From a filamentous cyanobacterium CCT1 (GTDB taxonomy: Bacteria; Cyanobacteriota; Cyanobacteriia; Phormidesmidales; Phormidesmidaceae): a stretch of 36,196 bases of DNA. Under the pieces are notes generated by a model that had not been told where the DNA came from, searched no databases, and saw only the letters and a program-made list of their open reading frames with translations. Location of the stretch: positions 1 to 36,196 of the forward strand of contig PYER01000031.1 of assembly GCA_003017855.1 (NCBI GenBank), given 5' to 3'. How positions within the stretch are numbered: position 1 is the stretch's first letter; each line of letters starts with the position of its first letter. This document shows positions 1-9,953 of this stretch, piece by piece. The translations under genes and the position numbers were made by a program.

Positions 1-2049
1 ATTGTCGGCCCCAGAGATGCGCACGTCGGCAAAGCCGGGCAGCGCGGCGACTTGAGCCTGAATCTCGGCGGCGGCGGTTTGCAGCGCTGCCACATCGTCG
101 CCCAGCAGCGACACCTGGAGCGGTTTCTCGCCGCCGGTATCGACAAACTGGATGTCTTCAACGCTGGTTTCAACGCCCTCTAGCTGCGGCAAATCCTGGC
201 GGAGCTGAGCCTGAACGGCAGCGGTGTCGCGATCGCGGTCCTCCCGCAGCTTGATGTACAGGCTGCCCTCGTTGGGCCGCCCCCGCCCGCCCACGGTGGT
301 CAACACCGACTCCACTTCGGGCAGGGCAGACACGGTTTCTTCTAGCTCATCGGCCTGCTGGAGGGTTTGCTGCAAGAGCTGCGCTCGCACATCCCCCGCC
401 CCCGGTGGAGTAGTTAGGCCGGGGGGTAACTGACCCGACGGCAGCTGAGCCTGTAGCTGGGCTAAGTCCTGGCCCTGCCCAGCGCCTGGACCTGGGCGCT
501 GGGGCAGCGGCGCGCTGTAGTTGAGCAAAAATTCTCCCTGGTCGAGCTGGGGAATAAACCCCTGGGGAATCAGAGGAATGATGGCGACCCCGGCAATCAG
601 GCTGGCGATCGCCAAACCCACCACAATCCAGCGATGGCGCAGCGACCAAGCCAGCATTCGGCTGTAAATGCGCTCCAGCCAGGAGGTAGGCACCGCATCT
701 GAGACAGGAGCGGCCTGGTCTGAGACCAGGGGAGCACTGGAGTTAGAGGGTCTAGTCCGTAGCCAGTACACGGCCAGCACTGGCGTCAGCGTGCGCGCTA
801 CCAGCAGCGAAAATAGCACCGCCGCCGACACGGTCAGGCCAAAGGGTTTGAAGAACTGGCCTACCGTACCGCCCATCAGCGCCACAGGCAAAAACACGGC
901 CACAATGGTCAGCGTTGAGGCCGACACCGTCAGACCAATTTCGTCCGTCGCTAGCAGCGCTGCCTGGCGGGGAGTCGCCCCCTCCTCCATATGGCGAATG
1001 ATGTTCTCAATTTCAACGATCGCATCGTCCACAATGATGCCAATCACGATCGCCAGGGCCAGCAGCGTAATCGTCTCCAGGTTAAAGCCATAGATAGCCA
1101 TCACGATCGCCGTGCCCAGCAGCGACAGCGGAATCGCAAGCGCCGTAATTACCGTTGCCCGCCAGCTGCGCAAAAAGCCCAAAATCACCAGCACCGCCAG
1201 CACGATCGCCCCCACCAGCGCGTCGATAGTGGCTTGGGTGGCCGAGCGAATAAAGCCCGCCTGGGTAGCGGCCAGCGTGATCTGCACCTGGGGTAGATCG
1301 GCGCGCAGCTGCTCAACGGCGGCTTCAACCTGATCGACCACCTCCAGTGTGTTGGCCTCGCCCTGCTTAATCACCTGCACCGCCAGCGCCTCTTCCCCGT
1401 TAAAGCGAATCAGGGTGGGGGGATTTTGCAGAGCGGCGAGAAAACTCCCTTCCCCTTCAGCGGCGGCGGTGGCAGCTTGAGCGCCCCTACCCTGTAGATC
1501 GACTCGCAAAACGCCGGGCAGGTCTTGTAGGGGTGGCAAAATCTCCGCCTCGGCCAGCTCAGCCAGTTCGGCTAAGCTCAGCTCGTCACTGGTGAGGGCA
1601 TAGCTAATTGCCGTCGCCTCATTCAGGTTGAGGGGAATGATTTCGTAGTCGGCCTCGCTGGGCAGGTCGGCCTGGGCGATCGCCTCCTCCACAGCGGCGG
1701 TGGCTTCTGCCAGGCCCCGGTTGACGCTAAAGCCGGTTCTGACCAGGGTTTGTCCGGCGGAGGTGGTGGAGTTGAGCCGAGACAGCCCGGCTAGAGGCTG
1801 CAGCTGATTTTCTAAAGGAATGGTGAGCTGAGCTTCGGTTTCTAGCGCCGTCTCGATTGGGGCCGTCGCGTTGACCAGCACCACCGAAAATGTAATGTCT
1901 GGAAACAAGGCATACTTCAAAGAGCTAAACGCGAACAGCCCCGCCACCCCAATCACCAGCCAGCAGCAAACCGTTAGCCCACCGTTCTGAATGGCTAACC
2001 GAGAGATATTTAACCGTTCTCGCAGCTGACTGAAGTCGGGTCGAGGCAT
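1..2049 (-). CDS. RND efflux transporter, HAE1/AcrB type (partial, C-terminus off left edge)
   Basis: An uninterrupted frame of 683 codons starts at the ATG at 2049 (MPRPDFSQLRERL) and leaves the window at base 1. Family members are about 1,000-1,050 residues, so roughly the last third is missing. The first transmembrane helix is at about residues 25-45. A porter-domain segment with the typical FPDITF and PIETALE motifs follows. A cluster of helices at about 275-430 contains GIIVDDAIVEIENI, which carries the acidic residues of RND proton relay. A second porter half begins after about residue 480. Inner-membrane proton/drug antiporters of this family work with a periplasmic adaptor and an outer-membrane channel; neither is in the window. 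A Pro/Gln/Gly-rich insertion of about 40 residues (about 512-552) interrupts the start of the second porter half. The substrate cannot be told from sequence. Confidence 0.93.
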   Translation of the reverse strand, partial: MPRPDFSQLRERLNISRLAIQNGGLTVCCWLVIGVAGLFAFSSLKYALFPDITFSVVLVNATAPIETALETEAQLTIPLENQLQPLAGLSRLNSTTSAGQTLVRTGFSVNRGLAEATAAVEEAIAQADLPSEADYEIIPLNLNEATAISYALTSDELSLAELAELAEAEILPPLQDLPGVLRVDLQGRGAQAATAAAEGEGSFLAALQNPPTLIRFNGEEALAVQVIKQGEANTLEVVDQVEAAVEQLRADLPQVQITLAATQAGFIRSATQATIDALVGAIVLAVLVILGFLRSWRATVITALAIPLSLLGTAIVMAIYGFNLETITLLALAIVIGIIVDDAIVEIENIIRHMEEGATPRQAALLATDEIGLTVSASTLTIVAVFLPVALMGGTVGQFFKPFGLTVSAAVLFSLLVARTLTPVLAVYWLRTRPSNSSAPLVSDQAAPVSDAVPTSWLERIYSRMLAWSLRHRWIVVGLAIASLIAGVAIIPLIPQGFIPQLDQGEFLLNYSAPLPQRPGPGAGQGQDLAQLQAQLPSGQLPPGLTTPPGAGDVRAQLLQQTLQQADELEETVSALPEVESVLTTVGGRGRPNEGSLYIKLREDRDRDTAAVQAQLRQDLPQLEGVETSVEDIQFVDTGGEKPLQVSLLGDDVAALQTAAAEIQAQVAALPGFADVRISGADN

Positions 2050-2115: not shown

Positions 2116-2229
2116 GTGCCAGTGACGATCCCCGATGGCCCTAAGGGGCCGGTCTTTGACCATCACGCCACCGCTGACACCAAACTGGTCAAATTTCTGG
2201 TGCGTAACCCATTAACGGAATTTTCATGA
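2116..2229 (+). other. Possible 37-codon reading frame overlapping the ABC exporter start
   Basis: A frame starting at GTG 2116 (or GTG 2122) ends in a TGA that overlaps the exporter's ATG as ATGA, the arrangement usual for translational coupling. The peptide reads VPVTIPDGPKGPVFDHH, continuing to a C-terminus NPLTEFS. There is no ATG start and no convincing ribosome binding site. No known RiPP leader motif is recognised. It could be a leader ORF, a precursor peptide, the relic of a longer gene, or chance. Confidence 0.2.
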
Positions 2230-3875
2230 GCTTAGTGTTGTTTCTCCTACAGACCTCCGGGCCAGTCTTGCTAATCGCCCTGGCTACGGGCTTAGTCAGC
2301 GGCGGCTGCAGCGCGGCTCTGATCGCGCTAATCAGCTATTCCATTGCTCAGGAGACCGCCGGGGCGGTGGTAGTGGCCGCCTTTGTGGGACTGGGCGCGA
2401 TCGCCCTGATCACGGCCATGGTGTCACGCATTTTGCTGGTGCGATTTTCCCAGGCGGCGGTATTCGAGCTGCAGCTGCAGCTCTGCCGCCAGATTTTGGC
2501 CACCGAGCTAAAGTCTCTAGAAGCCCTGGGGCCACCCCGCCTGCTGGTCATTCTCACGGAGGATATTCAGGCGATCGCCGCCGCCGCCAGCATCCTGCCC
2601 GTCTTGATGATCAATATTGCGGGTACGGTCGGCTGCATGGTCTACGTGTCGTGGCTGTCGTGGCAGGTGCTGGCCCTAGTGCTGCTGATTACCCTGGTCG
2701 CCTCGTTTAGCTGCCGATGGTTTTTGGTAGCGGGGCGGCGCGGTCTGGCAGCCGCCCGCGAAAACCAGGAGCAGTTGTTCCAGCATTTTCGTAGCCTGAT
2801 TGAGGGCATCAAAGAGCTAAAGCTGCACTACCTGGGCCGCCAAGACTTCTTTGCGATCGACCTGCAGCAGACCGCCCGCCAGGTCAGGCACTACAACCAA
2901 AAGGGGCTGAGCCTGTTTGCCGTGCTCGACAGCTGGGGCAAGTTTATCTACTTTTTTGCGGTCGGGCTGGTGCTGTTTGCCCTGCCCAACTGGATTGGCA
3001 TCAGCCCCAATACTCGGGTGGCCTACGTGCTCACCTTCACCTACCTGCTCGGCCCCATGGAAAACCTGGTGAATAAGCTGCCGTTGCTGGGCCAGGCCAG
3101 CGTTGCCCTCGACAAGCTCAAAACTCTGGGACTAACGATCCAACAGCCTGCTGCTGCCTCCGCCCCACCGCCTATCCAAAGCTGGCAGCAGCTAGAACTC
3201 AAGAGCGTCACCCACGCCTACAGGACCGATCTAGATGCCACAGAATTTACCCTGGGGCCAGTCGATCTGACGGTGCATCCGGGAGAGCTGATTTTTATCA
3301 TTGGCGGCAACGGCAGCGGCAAATCGACCCTGGCGAAGGTGCTGACGGGCCTCTATCAACCCCAGTCGGGCGAGATCTGGCTCGATCGGCAGCCCATCAC
3401 TGAGGAAAATCAGGAGTGGTATCGCCAGCATTTTTCAGTAGTATTTTCAGATTTCTACCTGTTTGAGCGGTTACTAGGGGTCAGTGGCGATGCCGACGAC
3501 AGCAAAGCTCAGGATTATTTAGAAAAGCTCAATCTCAGCCACAAGGTTCGGGTTGAGCAGGGCAAATTCTCAACGGTCGATCTCTCCCAGGGGCAGCGCA
3601 AACGCCTGGCTCTGCTCAGCGCCTACATGGAAAATCGCCCTATTTACCTGTTCGACGAGTGGGCCGCCGACCAGGACCCGGCCTTTAAGCAGGTGTTCTA
3701 CACCCAGTTTTTGCCGGATCTCAAGGCCCAGGGAAAGACCGTTTTTGTGATCAGCCACGACGATCATTATTTCTATGTGGGCGATCGCATCCTCAAGCTT
3801 AACTACGGCCAGGTCGAGTTTGAGCAAAGCCCCTCATCCGGTAAGAAACCGCTTTCAAGGGGTGATCTACTCTGA
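2226..3875 (+). CDS. Cyclic-peptide-export ABC transporter, SyrD/PvdE type (fused permease-ATPase)
   Basis: The 549-residue protein has an N-terminal membrane domain (helices in about residues 5-70, 120-170 and 235-280) fused to an ATPase domain. Walker A is GGNGSGKST (360-368), the signature is LSQGQRKR (453-460), Walker B runs into IYLFDEWAADQDP (473-485), and the switch histidine is H511 in VISHDDHYF. The FDEWAADQDP string and the FSVVFSDFYLF Q-loop region are characteristic of the family that exports cyclic lipopeptides, siderophore precursors and microviridin-type peptides. No NRPS or RiPP-modifying enzyme is adjacent, so the cargo is unknown. The start is fixed by the ATG at 2226, which overlaps the stop of a short upstream frame. 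A homodimer in the cytoplasmic membrane is expected from the family. Confidence 0.92.
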   Translation: MSLVLFLLQTSGPVLLIALATGLVSGGCSAALIALISYSIAQETAGAVVVAAFVGLGAIALITAMVSRILLVRFSQAAVFELQLQLCRQILATELKSLEALGPPRLLVILTEDIQAIAAAASILPVLMINIAGTVGCMVYVSWLSWQVLALVLLITLVASFSCRWFLVAGRRGLAAARENQEQLFQHFRSLIEGIKELKLHYLGRQDFFAIDLQQTARQVRHYNQKGLSLFAVLDSWGKFIYFFAVGLVLFALPNWIGISPNTRVAYVLTFTYLLGPMENLVNKLPLLGQASVALDKLKTLGLTIQQPAAASAPPPIQSWQQLELKSVTHAYRTDLDATEFTLGPVDLTVHPGELIFIIGGNGSGKSTLAKVLTGLYQPQSGEIWLDRQPITEENQEWYRQHFSVVFSDFYLFERLLGVSGDADDSKAQDYLEKLNLSHKVRVEQGKFSTVDLSQGQRKRLALLSAYMENRPIYLFDEWAADQDPAFKQVFYTQFLPDLKAQGKTVFVISHDDHYFYVGDRILKLNYGQVEFEQSPSSGKKPLSRGDLL

Positions 3876-4089
3876 TTAGGGGCTGGCTGCTTCTCACCGC
3901 TAACCTTTGTTAAGGACAAAAGTACACTTGATGACCGAAATGCATGATTGAGATAACTTGACTCAACTTTTAGAGTATTCTAATTCGGTCAGCTTTCCAT
4001 CCGGCGGCTTCTACAATAGAGGAATGGTAACGAGCAAAGAGGATAAAGTTGAATCAGATAAGGCAACATTTACCAGGAGTGTAAATTTC

Positions 4090-4284
4090 ATGGGTGAAAA
4101 ACGTGCGGTTATAGTCATAAAAACCAGTCTTAAATCTGCCACATCGGATGTAGCTTACTGGCAAAGCCAGACCTACGAAGCCAGACTAGCCGCCTTAGAA
4201 ACCATTCGCCGCGAATTCCATCAGTGGAAATACAATGCTGAGCCAGGATTTCAGAGAGTTTATCGAATTGTTAAACAAGCATAA
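4090..4284 (+). CDS. Small antitoxin-like protein (partner of an MNT-type nucleotidyltransferase)
   Basis: This 64-residue protein starts at ATG 4090 behind a good ribosome binding site (AGGAG about 9 nt upstream). The same frame is open further upstream (to 3958), but that part has no family-like sequence. The core SDVAYWQSQTYEARLAALE followed by IRREFHQWKY and a C-terminal FQRVYRIVK is a recurrent cyanobacterial small protein. From memory of such loci, it is usually encoded just ahead of, and overlapping, a nucleotidyltransferase-fold gene, probably as a toxin-antitoxin pair. Here the overlapping partner begins at 4235 but is only a stump, so this gene probably survives as an orphan. The functional assignment is inference. 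Confidence 0.65.
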   Translation: MGEKRAVIVIKTSLKSATSDVAYWQSQTYEARLAALETIRREFHQWKYNAEPGFQRVYRIVKQA

Positions 4285-4369
4285 TGTGCGTTACCTTGCC
4301 TTGGCGGCCACGCTGTCGCTTTACGTAGACATCGTTAACAAAAAGCAGGTCTTTTCAGACAACCTCTAA
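4235..4369 (+). pseudogene. Truncated nucleotidyltransferase (TA partner) remnant
   Basis: The frame from ATG 4235 overlaps the preceding small gene by 50 nt. It begins MLSQDFREFIELLNKHNVRY, like the N-terminus of cyanobacterial MNT-type nucleotidyltransferases. After RYL the expected conserved GGYAVALHG core is absent. The frame instead runs through unrelated residues to a stop at 4367-4369, 44 codons in all. The tail overlaps the 3' end of the convergent sulfotransferase gene. No catalytic motif remains, so it should be inactive. The loss of homology near 4300 looks like a deletion or rearrangement junction. Confidence 0.6.
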
Positions 4370-5446
4370 CCTGTAGCCCCAGCGTTGAATGTAGGGCTGC
4401 CAATGATCTTCAACTGCACGAATTGTTTTATCGCCCAAAGAATACTGGTTTTGCTGATAATCCTTCAGATCCGCTAAGTAAGCTTCAAAATAAGGGTGAG
4501 CAGCCTCAAAACCGGGCAGCTCTAGCTGTTCAAAGAGGGCCTTTAATTCCCCTAATGGATCGCTTTGCAAAGCCTCAAAGCTGAGTTCAGTAAATTGGTT
4601 GGGGAGCAAATCCGACGTGTCGTTTTTGAGCGCGTCTAACAAAAACGGGTAGCTCTCTAACACCAACGATTCGATTGGCAAATCGCCGTAGTCCTGCAGC
4701 GCCAGTTCGGGCAGCAATCGCGTGAAGTAGTGCCGCGCCGAGACAAATACCCGATACGGGTTCCGGTAGATGTGAATGAACTTTGCCCTCGGCCACAGCG
4801 ATCGCAGGTGACGAATGTAGCCCGTATAGACCGGGTTTTTAATCAGCAGCGGGCGGTGACCCTGGTGTACTGAAACTTTTTGCAGCAGGTGGCGATGTAG
4901 GCGTTTCCACCGCTCGATATCGGCCTCGCTCTCTGCTCCAAACACATCTCGGCGAAAGTGAGTTTCAAAGTGTTTGGGAAAGTACATTCCGTGGTAATAG
5001 GAAGTCGCCCCCATCGTCGCCAGGGGAATCGAGTCTTCCTGGGGCGAGGTGGGCGTTACCGTCACATTGTCTACATAACGGTCCTGGGGTAGGACCTGCT
5101 CCAGCAGCGGCTCCAGCGATCGCACAATGCCCAAGATATCCCACGGCATTCCCGTAGCCAGCGGGGTGATGTAGCCAAAGGCCGGGGACTGGGCCAGGAG
5201 ATTGTGCAGGTGAGTGGTGCCCGATCGCCAGTAGCCGACGATAAAAATGGGGTCAGGCATCGGTGGCTGGGGGGCCAGCGCAAACGCAGCTCGCTCCGCC
5301 GTGGAAAAGGGCCAGCGAGCTAGCGACACCGCCAAGGCCAGCGCTGCCTGAGGACAGCGGTTAAGGGCGGGAGGACCATTCGCCAAAAATAGCTTCAGCA
5401 GAGTGGGCGGGTTGCTGCCGCAGAGGGGGTGAAACAGGCTCGCCAT
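4355..5446 (-). CDS. Sulfotransferase family protein (Sulfotransfer_3-like), last gene of the lipid operon
   Basis: The 363-residue protein has the PAPS-binding 5'-phosphosulfate loop GYWRSGTTHLHNLL at residues 71-84. A 3'-phosphate-binding segment FIHIYRNPYRVFVS lies in the middle of the protein. Together they define a PAPS-dependent sulfotransferase. The gene follows the aminotransferase by only 6 nt and is almost certainly co-transcribed with it and the squalene/phytoene synthase-family gene. The natural acceptor is unknown. Context suggests an amino- or hydroxyl-bearing lipid such as a hopanoid side chain, but that is inference. The N-terminal 60 residues are hydrophobic and could associate with membrane. 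The 3' end overlaps the truncated nucleotidyltransferase frame on the other strand. Confidence 0.88.
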   Translation of the reverse strand: MASLFHPLCGSNPPTLLKLFLANGPPALNRCPQAALALAVSLARWPFSTAERAAFALAPQPPMPDPIFIVGYWRSGTTHLHNLLAQSPAFGYITPLATGMPWDILGIVRSLEPLLEQVLPQDRYVDNVTVTPTSPQEDSIPLATMGATSYYHGMYFPKHFETHFRRDVFGAESEADIERWKRLHRHLLQKVSVHQGHRPLLIKNPVYTGYIRHLRSLWPRAKFIHIYRNPYRVFVSARHYFTRLLPELALQDYGDLPIESLVLESYPFLLDALKNDTSDLLPNQFTELSFEALQSDPLGELKALFEQLELPGFEAAHPYFEAYLADLKDYQQNQYSLGDKTIRAVEDHWQPYIQRWGYRLEVV

Positions 5447-5452
5447 ATCTGG

Positions 5453-6841
5453 CTACCGGGCTCCGGCTTTGGTTTTCATCGCCTGGGTGGCCAGGGTTTT
5501 GCCAAAGTCCCAGGCGGCACCCGGTATACGGTGGGCATCGGCTACCACGTCGGTGACGGCCTCAACAATCCAGCGGCGATCGCTCTCCTGCAGCGTCAAG
5601 GGCGGTATAAACTTGACCACGTTCATGCCGTAGCCCGCCACCTGCGACAAAATCCGGTGGCGAGTAAACAGCGGCACCGTAATAATTTGTGAGAACAGGC
5701 CCCGGTTAGCCGTCTCCAGCATCTTCCACGACAGCTTCAGCTTCAGGCTCTTGGGCTCGCCAAACTCTAGGGCCATCATCATGCCCAGGCCCCGCACCGC
5801 TTTCAGGCAGTCGTACTGGCCAACCAGGGGCTGCAAGTCAGCCACAATCTGCTGTCCCATGTGGGCGGCGTGGTCGATCCAGCCCTCGGTTTCGAGTACG
5901 TCTAGGGTAGCCAGCCCCGCCGCCATGGCCAGGTTGTTTTTGCCGAAGGTACTGCCGTGGACCACGGCGCGATCCATCCGGTTGAAGACTTTATCGAAGA
6001 TCCAGGGGCGACAGGCGACGGCACCGACAGGGACGAATCCACCAGATAAGGCCTTGGCCATACAGAGCAGATCTGGCTCGACGCCAAAGTGCTCCACCGC
6101 CCACCACTTGCCCGTGCGGCCCAGCCCGGTCTGCACCTCGTCAGCGATGAACAGGCTGCCGTATTGGCGACACAGCGCTGCCGCCCCCGGTAGATAGTCC
6201 GCCTCCGGGATCCACACCCCGTGGCCCTGAATCGGTTCTGTGATAAAAGCAGCCACGTCTTTGCGGGACAAAGCCTGCTCTAGCGCGGCCAAATCACCAA
6301 AGGGCACCTCGATAAAGTCGGGCAAAAAGGGACCAAACCCCTCTCGAAAGTGGGCGTCACCCGTGGCCGAGAGGGAACCCATGGTAAGGCCGTGGTAGCC
6401 CCCCTCGCAGTAGACGATTTTGCTGCGTCCGGTGGCGTAGCGGCTGAACTTGATCGCCGCCTCCACGCTTTCGGTGCCGGAGTTGGCAAAAAAGATGCGA
6501 TCCAGCCCCGGCGGCGTGATCTGCTGCAGTTTTTCCGCTAGAAGCCCCGACAGAATCGACACATCCAGCTGCACCAGGTTGGGCAGTTCGGCGCTCAGCA
6601 CAGCCTGCAGCGCCTGCACGATTTTGGGATGGTTGCGGCCCAGGGCAAACACGCCAAACCCGGCCAGCAGGTCGAGGTAGCGATCGCCCTGGTCATCAAA
6701 CAAATAAGGCCCCTCCGCCCGCACATAGTGGCGATCGAACCCGATCGTCTTGAGGACGTTGACCATTTGCGGGTTGAGGTACTGGCTGTGCAGCGAGAAA
6801 TTGTCGCGCTGCCGCTGTTGGAGCTGATCCAGGATGTTCAT
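5453..6841 (-). CDS. hpnO: Class III PLP-dependent aminotransferase, HpnO-like (hopanoid side-chain amination)
   Basis: This 462-residue fold-type I aminotransferase has the pattern SGTESVEAAIKF (121-132), YHGLTMGSLSATG (149-161), the cofactor aspartate D234 in FIADEVQTGLGRTG and the Schiff-base lysine K263 in CMAKALSGG. It resembles the acetylornithine/ornithine aminotransferase branch that includes HpnO, which converts the hopanoid side chain to aminobacteriohopanetriol. The call rests on this resemblance plus context: it lies 35 nt behind a squalene/phytoene synthase-family gene and the operon is divergent from hpnH. An extended C-terminus (about residues 380-462) follows the core. It could instead act on another aldehyde substrate, so the family call is firm and the HpnO role is moderately supported. 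Confidence 0.7.
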   Translation of the reverse strand: MNILDQLQQRQRDNFSLHSQYLNPQMVNVLKTIGFDRHYVRAEGPYLFDDQGDRYLDLLAGFGVFALGRNHPKIVQALQAVLSAELPNLVQLDVSILSGLLAEKLQQITPPGLDRIFFANSGTESVEAAIKFSRYATGRSKIVYCEGGYHGLTMGSLSATGDAHFREGFGPFLPDFIEVPFGDLAALEQALSRKDVAAFITEPIQGHGVWIPEADYLPGAAALCRQYGSLFIADEVQTGLGRTGKWWAVEHFGVEPDLLCMAKALSGGFVPVGAVACRPWIFDKVFNRMDRAVVHGSTFGKNNLAMAAGLATLDVLETEGWIDHAAHMGQQIVADLQPLVGQYDCLKAVRGLGMMMALEFGEPKSLKLKLSWKMLETANRGLFSQIITVPLFTRHRILSQVAGYGMNVVKFIPPLTLQESDRRWIVEAVTDVVADAHRIPGAAWDFGKTLATQAMKTKAGAR

Positions 6842-6876
6842 TAACTAGGGGTAAAGAGGGGCTGTGTTCGATCTAC

Positions 6877-7722
6877 CTAGACTTTAGTCATAAGTTCGAC
6901 CGATTTGCCAACGCCCAGAAGCGGCGTCACGATCGCCACCACATCGGCTCGGCTGAGCTTCTCCCGGCCCTGGGCCAGGGCATCAATGGTGGCCGTAGCC
7001 AGAGCGAGGGGAATGCGGCAAAACAGCAGGGCTGGCCCCTTGGGCAGGGCATGGGTGTAGGAGTCAGCCATTTTGAGGTTGCGGCGGGCGTAGCGCTGCA
7101 TGTCATCCGCCGTCCACCCTTCCGGGAAAAAGTCGACGCCGCGATCCTTGTCTTCCAGGTGATTGCGCAAAATGTTGACCGACTGCAGGCCGCGCCCAAA
7201 GCCAATCGCCTCCATGCGGCTGGTTTCGGTACCGTCATACCAGGCCCACAGGTCAGACAACATCAGGCCCACCGCCCCGGCCACGCTAAAGGTGTAGCGA
7301 TCGAGGTCGGCCTCGGTTTTAATTGTCCAATTTTGCTCGGCCCAGTAGGCCATGCGATCGGCCATAGTGGCGGTGGCATCCCAGATGCGAGGGGCGATCG
7401 TATCTGGGGCCAGCAGGGCCCATTCACCAATCCGCAGGGTCACCTCGTCAAGCTGGTGCTCGTAGCCACTCAGCCCCACCGCAAAATCCTCCACCGCCGA
7501 AAATTCAGTCCCCGCCTGCAGGTTGAGGCTAATTTGGCGCAGCAGCCTGGCCTTTGTGCCGCTGTCGAGGGTTGGATGATCCTCAATTTGGTCGATCGCT
7601 CTCATGCACAGGTATGCAGATGCAACCGCTTCTTGAAGCTTGGCTGGCAGCAAGCTGATTGGGATAAAAAACGTTCGGCTAGTCTCCCTCAGCAAGTCCA
7701 ACGCAGATTTGATAGACGGCAT
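6877..7722 (-). CDS. Squalene/phytoene synthase-family prenyltransferase
   Basis: The 281-residue protein belongs to the trans-isoprenyl diphosphate head-to-head synthase family. It has SRTFFIPISLLP (residues 15-26), a first acidic motif AIDQIEDH (42-49; D44, E47, D48) and a second motif SVNILRNHLEDKDRG (181-195) followed by VDFFPEGW. The RN..LED form with DFFPEGW matches a bacterial squalene-synthase-like subgroup rather than typical CrtB phytoene synthase. It probably condenses two farnesyl diphosphates and so supplies squalene for hopanoids. Head of the operon with the aminotransferase and sulfotransferase. The start ATG at 7722 has a GGAG ribosome binding site. A perfect palindrome lies 29-47 bp upstream. 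Whether the product is squalene, presqualene diphosphate or a carotenoid precursor is not decided by sequence alone. Confidence 0.8.
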   Translation of the reverse strand: MPSIKSALDLLRETSRTFFIPISLLPAKLQEAVASAYLCMRAIDQIEDHPTLDSGTKARLLRQISLNLQAGTEFSAVEDFAVGLSGYEHQLDEVTLRIGEWALLAPDTIAPRIWDATATMADRMAYWAEQNWTIKTEADLDRYTFSVAGAVGLMLSDLWAWYDGTETSRMEAIGFGRGLQSVNILRNHLEDKDRGVDFFPEGWTADDMQRYARRNLKMADSYTHALPKGPALLFCRIPLALATATIDALAQGREKLSRADVVAIVTPLLGVGKSVELMTKV

Positions 7723-8126
7723 TGAGCAATCTCCTCACACTACTTGAGTTTTCAACCATACTGGTTGAATTTCATCCAATAAGCATTAATAGAGCATTAA
7801 CAATGAATAGACTCGGATAGATGGTATCTGAGATTACCAATACCTGAGGCATCTGTGAACTGCCCCTAGCCAGTGGCAGAAGCGGGGCAAACGCATCTTA
7901 GCAACGCCAAACCAAAATGAGGCCGAGGCTAAGGCCACAAACAGTGGCGGTACCGAGCGAGAGGCCTATGGTTCGGTGGAGACAACCGTTTTTGCCAAAA
8001 TGCATTACGGTAGTTGGATATTCATGATCAGGGTTCGAATCATCGGCATCAGCCATGACCTGGCACAACCATGTCCAGCTCGATGGCTCTGCTATCGGAT
8101 CCTCCCCAACCGAGGAGTGGAGAGAA
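7723..8126. other. 404-nt intergenic region between divergent lipid genes
   Basis: This region must hold the promoters of both the synthase operon (minus) and hpnH (plus). It contains the palindrome at 7751-7769 and, next to it, two direct copies of GCATTAA (7783-7789 and 7794-7800). The half nearer hpnH has open frames on both strands (for example 7898-8176 minus and 8055 plus), but none has family-like sequence or a good ribosome binding site. No RNA gene was recognised. Confidence 0.6.
7751..7769. promoter_or_regulatory. Perfect palindrome, candidate operator of the lipid operon
   Basis: TTCAACCATACTGGTTGAA consists of two perfect 8-bp inverted half-sites separated by 3 bp. It lies 29 bp upstream of the synthase start codon, where it would overlap or abut the minus-strand promoter. 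Size and spacing suit a dimeric TetR-, GntR- or MarR-type repressor. No regulator gene is adjacent, so the binding protein is unknown. Confidence 0.55.
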
Positions 8127-9137
8127 ATGGCAATCAGTCTGCAGCAGGCCCTAGGTGTGGGGCAGTATTTGGTCACTCAGCGCCTCAAAGGCCGCAAGCA
8201 GTATCCCCTGGTGCTGATGCTGGAACCGCTGTTTCGCTGTAACCTGGCCTGCTCGGGCTGCGGCAAAATTCAGCATCCCAAAGAAATTCTGAAGCAGAAC
8301 CTGTCGCCCGAGGACTGCTTCGCTGCGGTGGAAGAATGCGGCGCTCCGGTGGTTTCAATCCCCGGTGGAGAGCCGCTGCTGCATCCTCAGATTGACGAAA
8401 TCGTGCAGGGGCTGGTCGATCGCAGAAAGTTTGTCTACCTCTGCACCAACGGCCTGCTGCTCGAAAAAAGTCTCCACAAGTTTACGCCGTCGCCCTATCT
8501 CTCCTTCAGCGTTCACCTGGACGGCATGAAAGAGCTGCACGACCAATGCGTCGATCGCTCCGGCGTGTTCGATATTGCCATTAGCGCCATTCGAGCCGCC
8601 AAAGCACGAGGCTTTCGCGTTACCACCAATACCACTGTGTTTGAGGGTACTGATCCCAAAGAGATTCAGGTGCTCTTCGACTATCTCACCGAGCTCAAAG
8701 TCGACGGCATGATGGTTTCACCAGGCTATAGCTACGAGTGGGCCCCGAACCAGGATCACTTCCTCAAGCGCGAGCAAACCAAAGCCCTGTTCCGCGAGAT
8801 TTTGGCCCCCTTCACCACTGGCAAAAAGAAATGGGAGTTCAACCATAATCCGCTCTTTTTAGATTTTCTAACCGGCCAAAAAGACTATGACTGCACGCCC
8901 TGGGGTAGCCCCAGCTATAGCGTGCTGGGCTGGCAAAAACCTTGCTATCTGCTCAACGAAGGCCATTACGAAACCTTCCAAGAACTGCTCGACAACACCG
9001 ACTGGGATCAGTACGGCCACAACAGCGGCAATCCCCAGTGCGCCGACTGCATGGTGCACTGTGGCTATGAGCCTACCGCCGCAGAAGCAGCCCTCCAGCC
9101 GCAGAACATGCTGCGAGCAATGGGCAGCCTCTTCTAG
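8127..9137 (+). CDS. hpnH: HpnH, adenosyl-hopene transferase (radical SAM)
   Basis: HpnH adds a 5'-deoxyadenosyl group to diploptene (hopene), the first step of C35 extended hopanoid synthesis. The chosen start, ATG 8127 ([15 protein letters not shown]), has a GGAGAG-type ribosome binding site and matches the usual HpnH N-terminus. The upstream ATG at 8055 in the same frame adds 24 unconserved residues. The 336-residue protein has the 4Fe-4S motif RCNLACSGC (C38, C42, C45) and GGEPLLHP binding the SAM amino group. A Cys-rich C-terminal segment ([13 protein letters not shown]) is also typical. Length and motif order fit the family throughout. The squalene-hopene cyclase and HpnG expected in the pathway are not in this window. 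Confidence 0.93.

Positions 9138-9177: not shown

Positions 9178-9953
<776 letters not shown>

Follow-up and report, generated by a model that had tools for sequence, protein, structure and literature searches.

The 36,196-nt contig C341 (PYER01000031.1) from the 6.85-Mb draft genome of the filamentous cyanobacterium CCT1, referred to here as the window, carries a compact locus in which a squalene-synthase-type gene (SQS), an aminotransferase gene (AT) and a sulfotransferase gene (ST) form a single unit on the minus strand, divergent from hpnH (Table 1). Here, we describe this sulfotransferase and its association with genes of hopanoid biosynthesis. Open reading frame (ORF) coordinates place gaps of 35 nt and 6 nt between the three genes and, together with the family matches, confirm the operon proposed in an earlier note on this DNA. 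The genes lie where that note placed them, apart from the start of hpnH, which is more likely at 8127 than at 8055 because TIGR03470 matches from residue 25 on.

The hpnH product scores 552.1 bits against the TIGR03470 equivalog (cut-off, 225). The SQS product contains an SQS_PSY domain (92.8 bits; cut-off, 26), and its best PDB matches are squalene synthases; it stays below the equivalog cut-offs for squalene synthase (TIGR01559, 79.4 bits against 286.75), HpnC (19 against 250) and HpnD (44.7 against 279). Two SQS_PSY genes were found in the genome: this SQS and a second gene of CrtB type (507 bits on the matched part; cut-off, 550). With only these two, one of them CrtB-type, HpnC/D/E were rejected as the squalene source. 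The genome has one squalene-hopene cyclase (SHC), on contig G000:C302 and thus outside the window, as the earlier note had expected. An adenosine 5'-phosphosulfate (APS) kinase, which forms 3'-phosphoadenosine 5'-phosphosulfate (PAPS), was also found.

Table 1 Features of the sulfotransferase locus and its flank in the window
Feature	Position	Strand	Basis
ST, Sulfotransfer_3 family, proposed hopanoid sulfotransferase, 363 aa	4355-5446	-	Pfam, invariant residues, fold model
AT, class III pyridoxal phosphate-dependent aminotransferase, HpnO-like, 462 aa	5453-6841	-	Pfam, Streptomyces hpn-cluster homology, pairing with ST
SQS, squalene-synthase-type gene, 281 aa	6877-7722	-	SQS_PSY domain; PDB matches
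Intergenic spacer separating hpnH from the divergent SQS-AT-ST unit; presumed promoter region	7723-8126		Sequence
hpnH, adenosyl-hopene transferase	8127-9137 (ORF open from 8055)	+	TIGR03470
ATP-binding cassette (ABC) exporter, TIGR01194 cyclic peptide export subfamily	2226-3875	+	NCBIfam; cluster membership in relatives
Resistance-nodulation-division (RND, AcrB-type) transporter, cut by the window edge	1-2049	-	ACR_tran; cluster membership in relatives

The ST matches the Sulfotransfer_3 domain with 107.1 bits (cut-off, 27). Across an alignment of 46 sequences, residues W73, R74, G76, T77, T78, R228 and S236 are invariant and S75 is nearly so; we take R74, G76, T77, T78, R228 and S236 to be the residues of the 5'-phosphosulfate loop and the 3'-phosphate site. 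The predicted structure is of high confidence (mean pLDDT, 94.4). By sequence, no PDB entry matched the ST at an E value of 0.001. Among the solved folds compared with the model, which were Foldseek's own top chains, so that families outside those chains may also fit, STF9 of Mycobacterium avium was the closest (Z score, 25.9; 337 residues; root-mean-square deviation, 3.7), and STF1 of Mycobacterium tuberculosis was also similar (Z score, 23.8; 301 residues; root-mean-square deviation, 3.8). Both differ from the ST in sequence, with identities of only 16 to 17%, and we know of no hopanoid role for either.

The AT is a class III enzyme (Aminotran_3, 322 bits) encoded with hopanoid genes, which is the context expected of HpnO. 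Its two best matches in a plasmid collection are aminotransferases near hpnH of Streptomyces, with 52.5% identity over 98%. In a quick tree, the cyanobacterial, myxobacterial, Streptomyces hpn-cluster and Desulfofustis enzymes group together, apart from the PigE- and PatA-type aminotransferases. A homologue of 43% identity is present on a plasmid of Rhizobium rhizogenes (L077:6001-7314), in a phosphonate-type cluster with aepX, aepY and a 2-aminoethylphosphonate transaminase gene.

AT and ST are closely coupled in the cyanobacteria that have the AT. In a sample of 291 genomes of the class, the AT (counted at E values up to 1e-100) occurs in 15, and in all 15 an ST of at least 57% identity lies directly downstream. 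Of 26 fetched loci with both genes, which omit the window and several of which are one genome fetched twice and not independent, 24 have AT followed by ST on the same strand, 1 to 55 nt apart. The two exceptions are a myxobacterial metagenome-assembled genome (MAG), with a distance of 1.8 kb and another Sulfotransfer_3 gene in between, and a Desulfofustis MAG, in which the genes are divergent.

The setting of the pair is more variable. The order SQS-AT-ST next to hpnH, which the earlier note suggested looking for in related genomes, is present in seven members of the genus, the window included, whereas other cyanobacteria keep the AT-ST pair without that setting. The pair adjoins hpnH without SQS in one genome (G042, locus L042), stands beside HpnG-like and RND genes at L044 and L088, and is found beside the hopanoid-associated ABC exporter, with SQS and hpnH not adjacent, at L040, L043 and L045. 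Elsewhere, it lies away from recognized hpn genes. One ST (L083) has no AT in the 10 kb upstream, and hpnH is present in the same genome.

The close relatives also reveal that the cluster extends past positions 4355 to 9137, as the ABC and RND genes of the window belong to the same cluster there. At L035 to L037, a single 19-kb stretch contains genes for SHC, HpnB, an HpnG-like phosphorylase, the RND transporter, the ABC exporter, ST, AT, SQS and HpnH. HpnB and SHC of L035 score above their curated cut-offs; the name HpnG-like is used because the one relative's protein tested (L035) reached 73 bits against a TIGR03468 cut-off of 187.1. Since this gene lies near the RND gene in relatives, it is probably located just off the window edge. 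The ABC exporter scores 499 bits against TIGR01194. Among the 68 class genomes that score highest for this exporter (577 bits or more, a threshold chosen after the list was seen), 61 have hpnH, versus 137 of 291 overall, and the protein appears to be a transporter of cyanobacterial hopanoid clusters in general. The RND gene (Pfam ACR_tran, 390 bits) falls in ORF cluster c6, with 10 loci including the window, and may be a functional counterpart of HpnN. The transporter has about 930 aa in relatives, and in the nine fetched loci with an RND gene it lies at most about 5 kb from the HpnG-like gene. Within the window, a short NAD(P)-binding gene at 9321 to 9953 was rejected as HpnA (35 bits; cut-off, 368), and a small ORF at 3958 to 4284 gave no family match in Pfam or NCBIfam.

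Hopanoid-type STs were delimited by cut-offs of more than 300 bits in cyanobacteria, 40.5% identity for contig-scan loci and 50% identity in the Azospirillaceae, all chosen after the lists were seen; the Fisher tests applied to the resulting counts ignore shared ancestry. An ST match was obtained in 51 of the 291 class genomes, 23 of them with a hopanoid-type ST and 28 with weaker matches only. hpnH is present in 20 of the former versus 8 of the latter, and every one of the 23 encodes a squalene-hopene cyclase. In the sample of the window's own genus, all eight genomes with the ST have hpnH, against none of the five without it.

These counts bear on the idea that AT and ST are a self-contained gene pair that serves some soluble or cell-wall metabolite and became inserted beside hopanoid genes in one genus. 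Such a module would account for loci L040, L041 and L043 to L047, where the pair does not adjoin SQS or hpnH, some of these contigs being short. It would not explain the cyclase in all 23 cyanobacterial genomes, the position beside HpnG-like and RND genes at L044 and L088, or the myxobacterial and Desulfofustis MAGs, in which AT and ST occur with SHC- and HpnH-type genes. We consider this explanation highly unlikely.

Other cyanobacteria show a second arrangement, in which STs of 45 to 49% identity follow HpnH or diverge from HpnA and have no adjoining AT (second copy at L041, L048, L049, L052 and L053). Outside the cyanobacteria, related STs (41 to 49% identity) belong to hpn clusters in Alphaproteobacteria, in a halomonad and in MAGs of myxobacterial and Desulfofustis origin, HpnA being the commonest neighbour. 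A contig scan with the ST alignment gave at least 583 confirmed candidates, of which the best 80 were analyzed; these include many Parvularculaceae, Azospirillum and some genomes of the class sample. Among these best 80, 56 loci have at least 40.5% identity to the ST of the window. For 50 of these, the fetched flank contains an hpn-type gene; 38 have one besides HpnA, HpnB and ispH, and HpnA is matched at 40% identity or more in 36. The 24 weaker loci include two with an HpnA-like gene and none with any other hpn gene. In the named genomes (50 of the best 80 loci), split by E-value rank, hpnH was found in 37 of 39 with the better STs (E values up to 7e-66) versus 1 of 11 with weaker ones, two of which have 37 to 38% identity; 36 of the 37 hpnH matches score above the cut-off.

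Clear clusters occur in Alphaproteobacteria, in Litchfieldella (with hpnH and HpnA), and in a Myxococcales and a Desulfofustis MAG. Plasmid ABSP7_p1 of Azospirillum brasilense Sp7, for instance, carries hpnA-like and hpnM-like genes, an ST of 46% identity, hpnN, shc, an hpnG-like gene and hpnH, with the HpnA and HpnM matches under their cut-offs. More generally, HpnA is the best family of the five HpnA partners tested, at 285 to 365 bits against a TIGR03466 cut-off of 367.65. The planctomycete and verrucomicrobial cases are weaker; in a Pedosphaera MAG, HpnA adjoins the ST. A Chloroflexaceae MAG contig (L087) may, at a guess, be a misplaced cyanobacterial contig, because its AT has 73% identity. 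In the Myxococcales MAG (L127:3411-12276), four genes follow each other on one strand: AT, a Sulfotransfer_3 gene of 31% identity, a hopanoid-type ST and a gene of HpnH type. Cyclase- and SQS-type genes diverge from this row, and a single hopanoid cluster thus has two sulfotransferases.

The suggestion that the ST might stand beside hpn genes in this genome only, named in the earlier note as grounds for abandoning a hopanoid role, clearly fails, given its recurrence in other cyanobacteria and other phyla. Support was obtained both for the hopanoid link itself and for an HpnO-like AT.

Seven genomes were searched for HpnA-type genes. These are present in G113, which has an HpnA-linked ST, in G189, where an HpnA-linked ST accompanies an AT-ST pair, and in G269 (PCC 7104), where the gene is not beside the AT-ST pair; at an E value of 1e-60, HpnA was not found in the window's genome and three other AT-ST genomes. 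This small sample, with its exceptions, suggests that the HpnO-like AT and HpnA are alternative partners of the ST. In G189 (L041:7590-12625), both ST types lie side by side, one ST divergent from HpnA and adjoining the AT-ST pair.

In a tree of 91 STs, 67 form one clade with a support of 100/100, and for 58 of these 67 the sampled flank includes hpn genes. The other nine comprise two Azospirillum STs from carotenoid clusters, one acetobacterial ST, that of Skermanella aerolata, and five on short contigs or lacking any recognized neighbour. Outside the clade, 2 of 24 carry an hpn label, both by virtue of an HpnA-like gene alone.

The two carotenoid-cluster STs, of Azospirillum oryzae (L075) and Azospirillum ramasamyi (L076), have about 38 to 40% identity and end an operon-like run of two crtI-type desaturase genes, an acyltransferase gene and a glycosyltransferase gene, a content that suggests a sulfated C30 carotenoid glycoside as the product there. 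Carotenoids of A. brasilense are made via squalene, from a separate crtNPOQ locus, according to the accessible part of PMC13274349, which also describes viable deletions of hpnCDE and of crtNPOQ in strain Sp7. The target of the ST in the window might likewise be some other triterpene derivative or membrane constituent, such as a C30 or C40 carotenoid or its glycoside, the locus being shared through squalene or the membrane. The distribution of hpnH in 82 Azospirillaceae genomes argues otherwise: it is present in 23 of 24 genomes with a hopanoid-type ST but in 1 of 16 with a low-identity ST only. It is also found in 15 of 42 genomes without an ST, among them eight (G394 to G401) that may, as a guess from number alone, be Nitrospirillum. 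In addition, the cyanobacterial ST is tied to HpnO-like, HpnH, HpnG-like and SHC genes, and apart from the SQS of the window this genome shows only the CrtB-type SQS_PSY gene. A carotenoid or similar target therefore seems quite unlikely.

We propose, with a probability of roughly two in three, that the cluster makes a sulfated bacteriohopanepolyol (BHP) by HpnO-type amination and PAPS-dependent sulfation of the side chain or its headgroup. The proposal draws on the identities, order and conservation of the genes, the co-occurrence with hpnH and the cyclase, the PAPS-site residues, the predicted fold and the APS kinase; which acceptor is used, whether amination precedes sulfation and which atom carries the sulfate are matters of inference. 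Squalene from the synthase of the window would be cyclized by the SHC encoded elsewhere in the genome. HpnH would then add an adenosyl unit, an HpnG-like enzyme would remove the adenine, and the HpnO-like AT would convert the side-chain aldehyde to 35-aminobacteriohopanetriol. The ST would use PAPS to sulfate the side chain, or a sugar attached to it, and the resulting sulfated (amino)BHP would be anionic or zwitterionic. Where an HpnO-like AT adjoins the ST, sulfated aminobacteriohopanetriol would be the simplest outcome, and in the second arrangement, with HpnA or HpnH as neighbour and no AT, the acceptor would be an alcohol-type BHP. The sulfated or N-sulfonated (amino)hopanoid that the earlier note envisaged as the product thus stands as an inference from sequence.

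Sulfation may instead concern a sugar headgroup of the hopanoid, the product of HpnB, rather than the C5 side chain. HpnB, the hopene-associated glycosyltransferase, is encoded in the same cluster in several relatives, and the sole NCBIfam match of the ST is a sugar sulfotransferase, the Nod factor enzyme NoeE, although this match is very weak and far below the equivalog cut-off (NF052394, 19.6 bits against 500). The tight partner of the ST is the AT, however, not HpnB, and the 33 kb fetched for the ST cluster of A. brasilense Sp7 gave no match to HpnB. This is a serious alternative, which we nevertheless regard as unlikely.

Several observations weigh against a sulfated BHP as the product. 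No sulfated hopanoid was found in the titles and abstract starts of the open-access literature, a search that may have overlooked subscription papers. The wider ST family is not restricted to hopanoids, because the two Azospirillum STs above sit in C30-carotenoid-type clusters, and both fall inside the 67-member clade. The ST of S. aerolata has no recognized hpn gene within about 10 kb, and in G266, whose AT groups with Microcystis, some 385 kb separate the pair from hpnH. A search for hpnH gave no match in G111, G202 and G271 among the 23 ST-positive cyanobacterial genomes, nor in the Pedosphaera MAG and the Azospirillum isscasi draft among the 39 named genomes with better STs. For the AT, the Streptomyces cluster gene, our stand-in for the characterized HpnO of Rhodopseudomonas palustris, is known here by context alone. 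The best 25 of the 69 NCBIfam matches of the AT include no curated HpnO model, the best being a partial PigE match (430.8; cut-off, 850). Finally, the Rhizobium phosphonate-cluster enzyme falls inside the same group of the quick AT tree, which has several very long branches.

Where papers from this literature mention a sulfotransferase (PMC4558948, PMC8776678, PMC12858407, PMC10252897 and PMC5472815, in their accessible parts), it is linked to olefin synthases, polyketide clusters, lipodiscamides, Nod factors or bulgecin and never to hopanoids. A cyanobacterial co-occurrence study groups HpnA, HpnB, HpnF, HpnH and a phosphorylase into one hopanoid module, and the accessible part of its text nowhere names a sulfotransferase (PMC5862535). 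The available sections of a survey of Alphaproteobacteria (PMC12583986) state that HpnH leads to adenosylhopane, HpnG to ribosylhopane and HpnO to aminobacteriohopanetriol, that the enzyme for bacteriohopanetetrol is not established, and that no more candidate genes were evident near the cluster. Its results sections, as distinct from Table S6 and the figures, mention no sulfate form, and the seven words in its text that start with "sulf" are unrelated.

The lipid data in the same sections of that survey (PMC12583986) are relevant here. A. brasilense Sp7 has six key hpn genes and gave no Rohmer product, only adenosylhopane being detected by liquid chromatography-mass spectrometry (LC-MS), a result that the authors ascribe to adenosylhopane itself; low BHP production is an equally possible explanation. 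S. aerolata 5416T-32 also gave no Rohmer product and had nine BHPs by LC-MS. For Nitrospirillum amazonense, of the same family (Azospirillaceae), the Rohmer yield was 16.2 mg/g. Three hpnH-positive strains in these data lack a Rohmer product, and A. brasilense Sp7 and S. aerolata, two of the three, have the ST. By our own chemical reasoning, a sulfate would block the periodate step of the Rohmer degradation, depending on its position. The missing product in ST carriers is suggestive of sulfated BHPs and serves as a lead only. The value of 0.0027 for both ST carriers being among three of 48 strains is not valid evidence, because it assumes that the other strains are ST-free and comes from an after-the-fact comparison, and also because two of the 48 have no Rohmer data and S. 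aerolata has nine BHPs.

More broadly, we suggest tentatively, and with somewhat more doubt than belief, that sulfated BHPs are an unrecognized lipid class in at least four phyla (two represented by MAGs only), missed because they are anionic and because the sulfate can block the periodate step. The alternation of HpnO-like and HpnA partners may then mean that HpnA converts ribosylhopane towards bacteriohopanetetrol. Hopanoids are the sterol-like membrane lipids of bacteria and leave a leading molecular fossil record. If the proposal holds, sulfated hopanoids, which judging from the open-access literature seem not to have been described before, would alter membrane charge and surface chemistry and could add to the biomarkers that are diagnostic of some cyanobacteria and alphaproteobacteria. 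They might also explain the low apparent BHP content of some genomes with complete hpn clusters. A role is thereby proposed for a conserved orphan gene, the ST, which the accessible part of the Alphaproteobacteria survey does not report as a candidate (PMC12583986).

Known decorations of the BHP side chain include cyclitol ether, carbamoyl, acyl, methyl, aminoacyl and nucleoside groups; the genes for this tailoring of the same side chain lie within the hpn cluster or close to it. The established HpnO step, the formation of 35-aminobacteriohopanetriol, likewise involves a class III aminotransferase in a hopanoid context; in the surveyed Alphaproteobacteria, hpnO is usually not in the hpn cluster, according to the accessible part of PMC12583986. 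Unlike the known HpnO, the AT described here forms a tight gene pair with the ST, a sulfotransferase whose relatives also lie inside the hopanoid clusters of unrelated bacteria.

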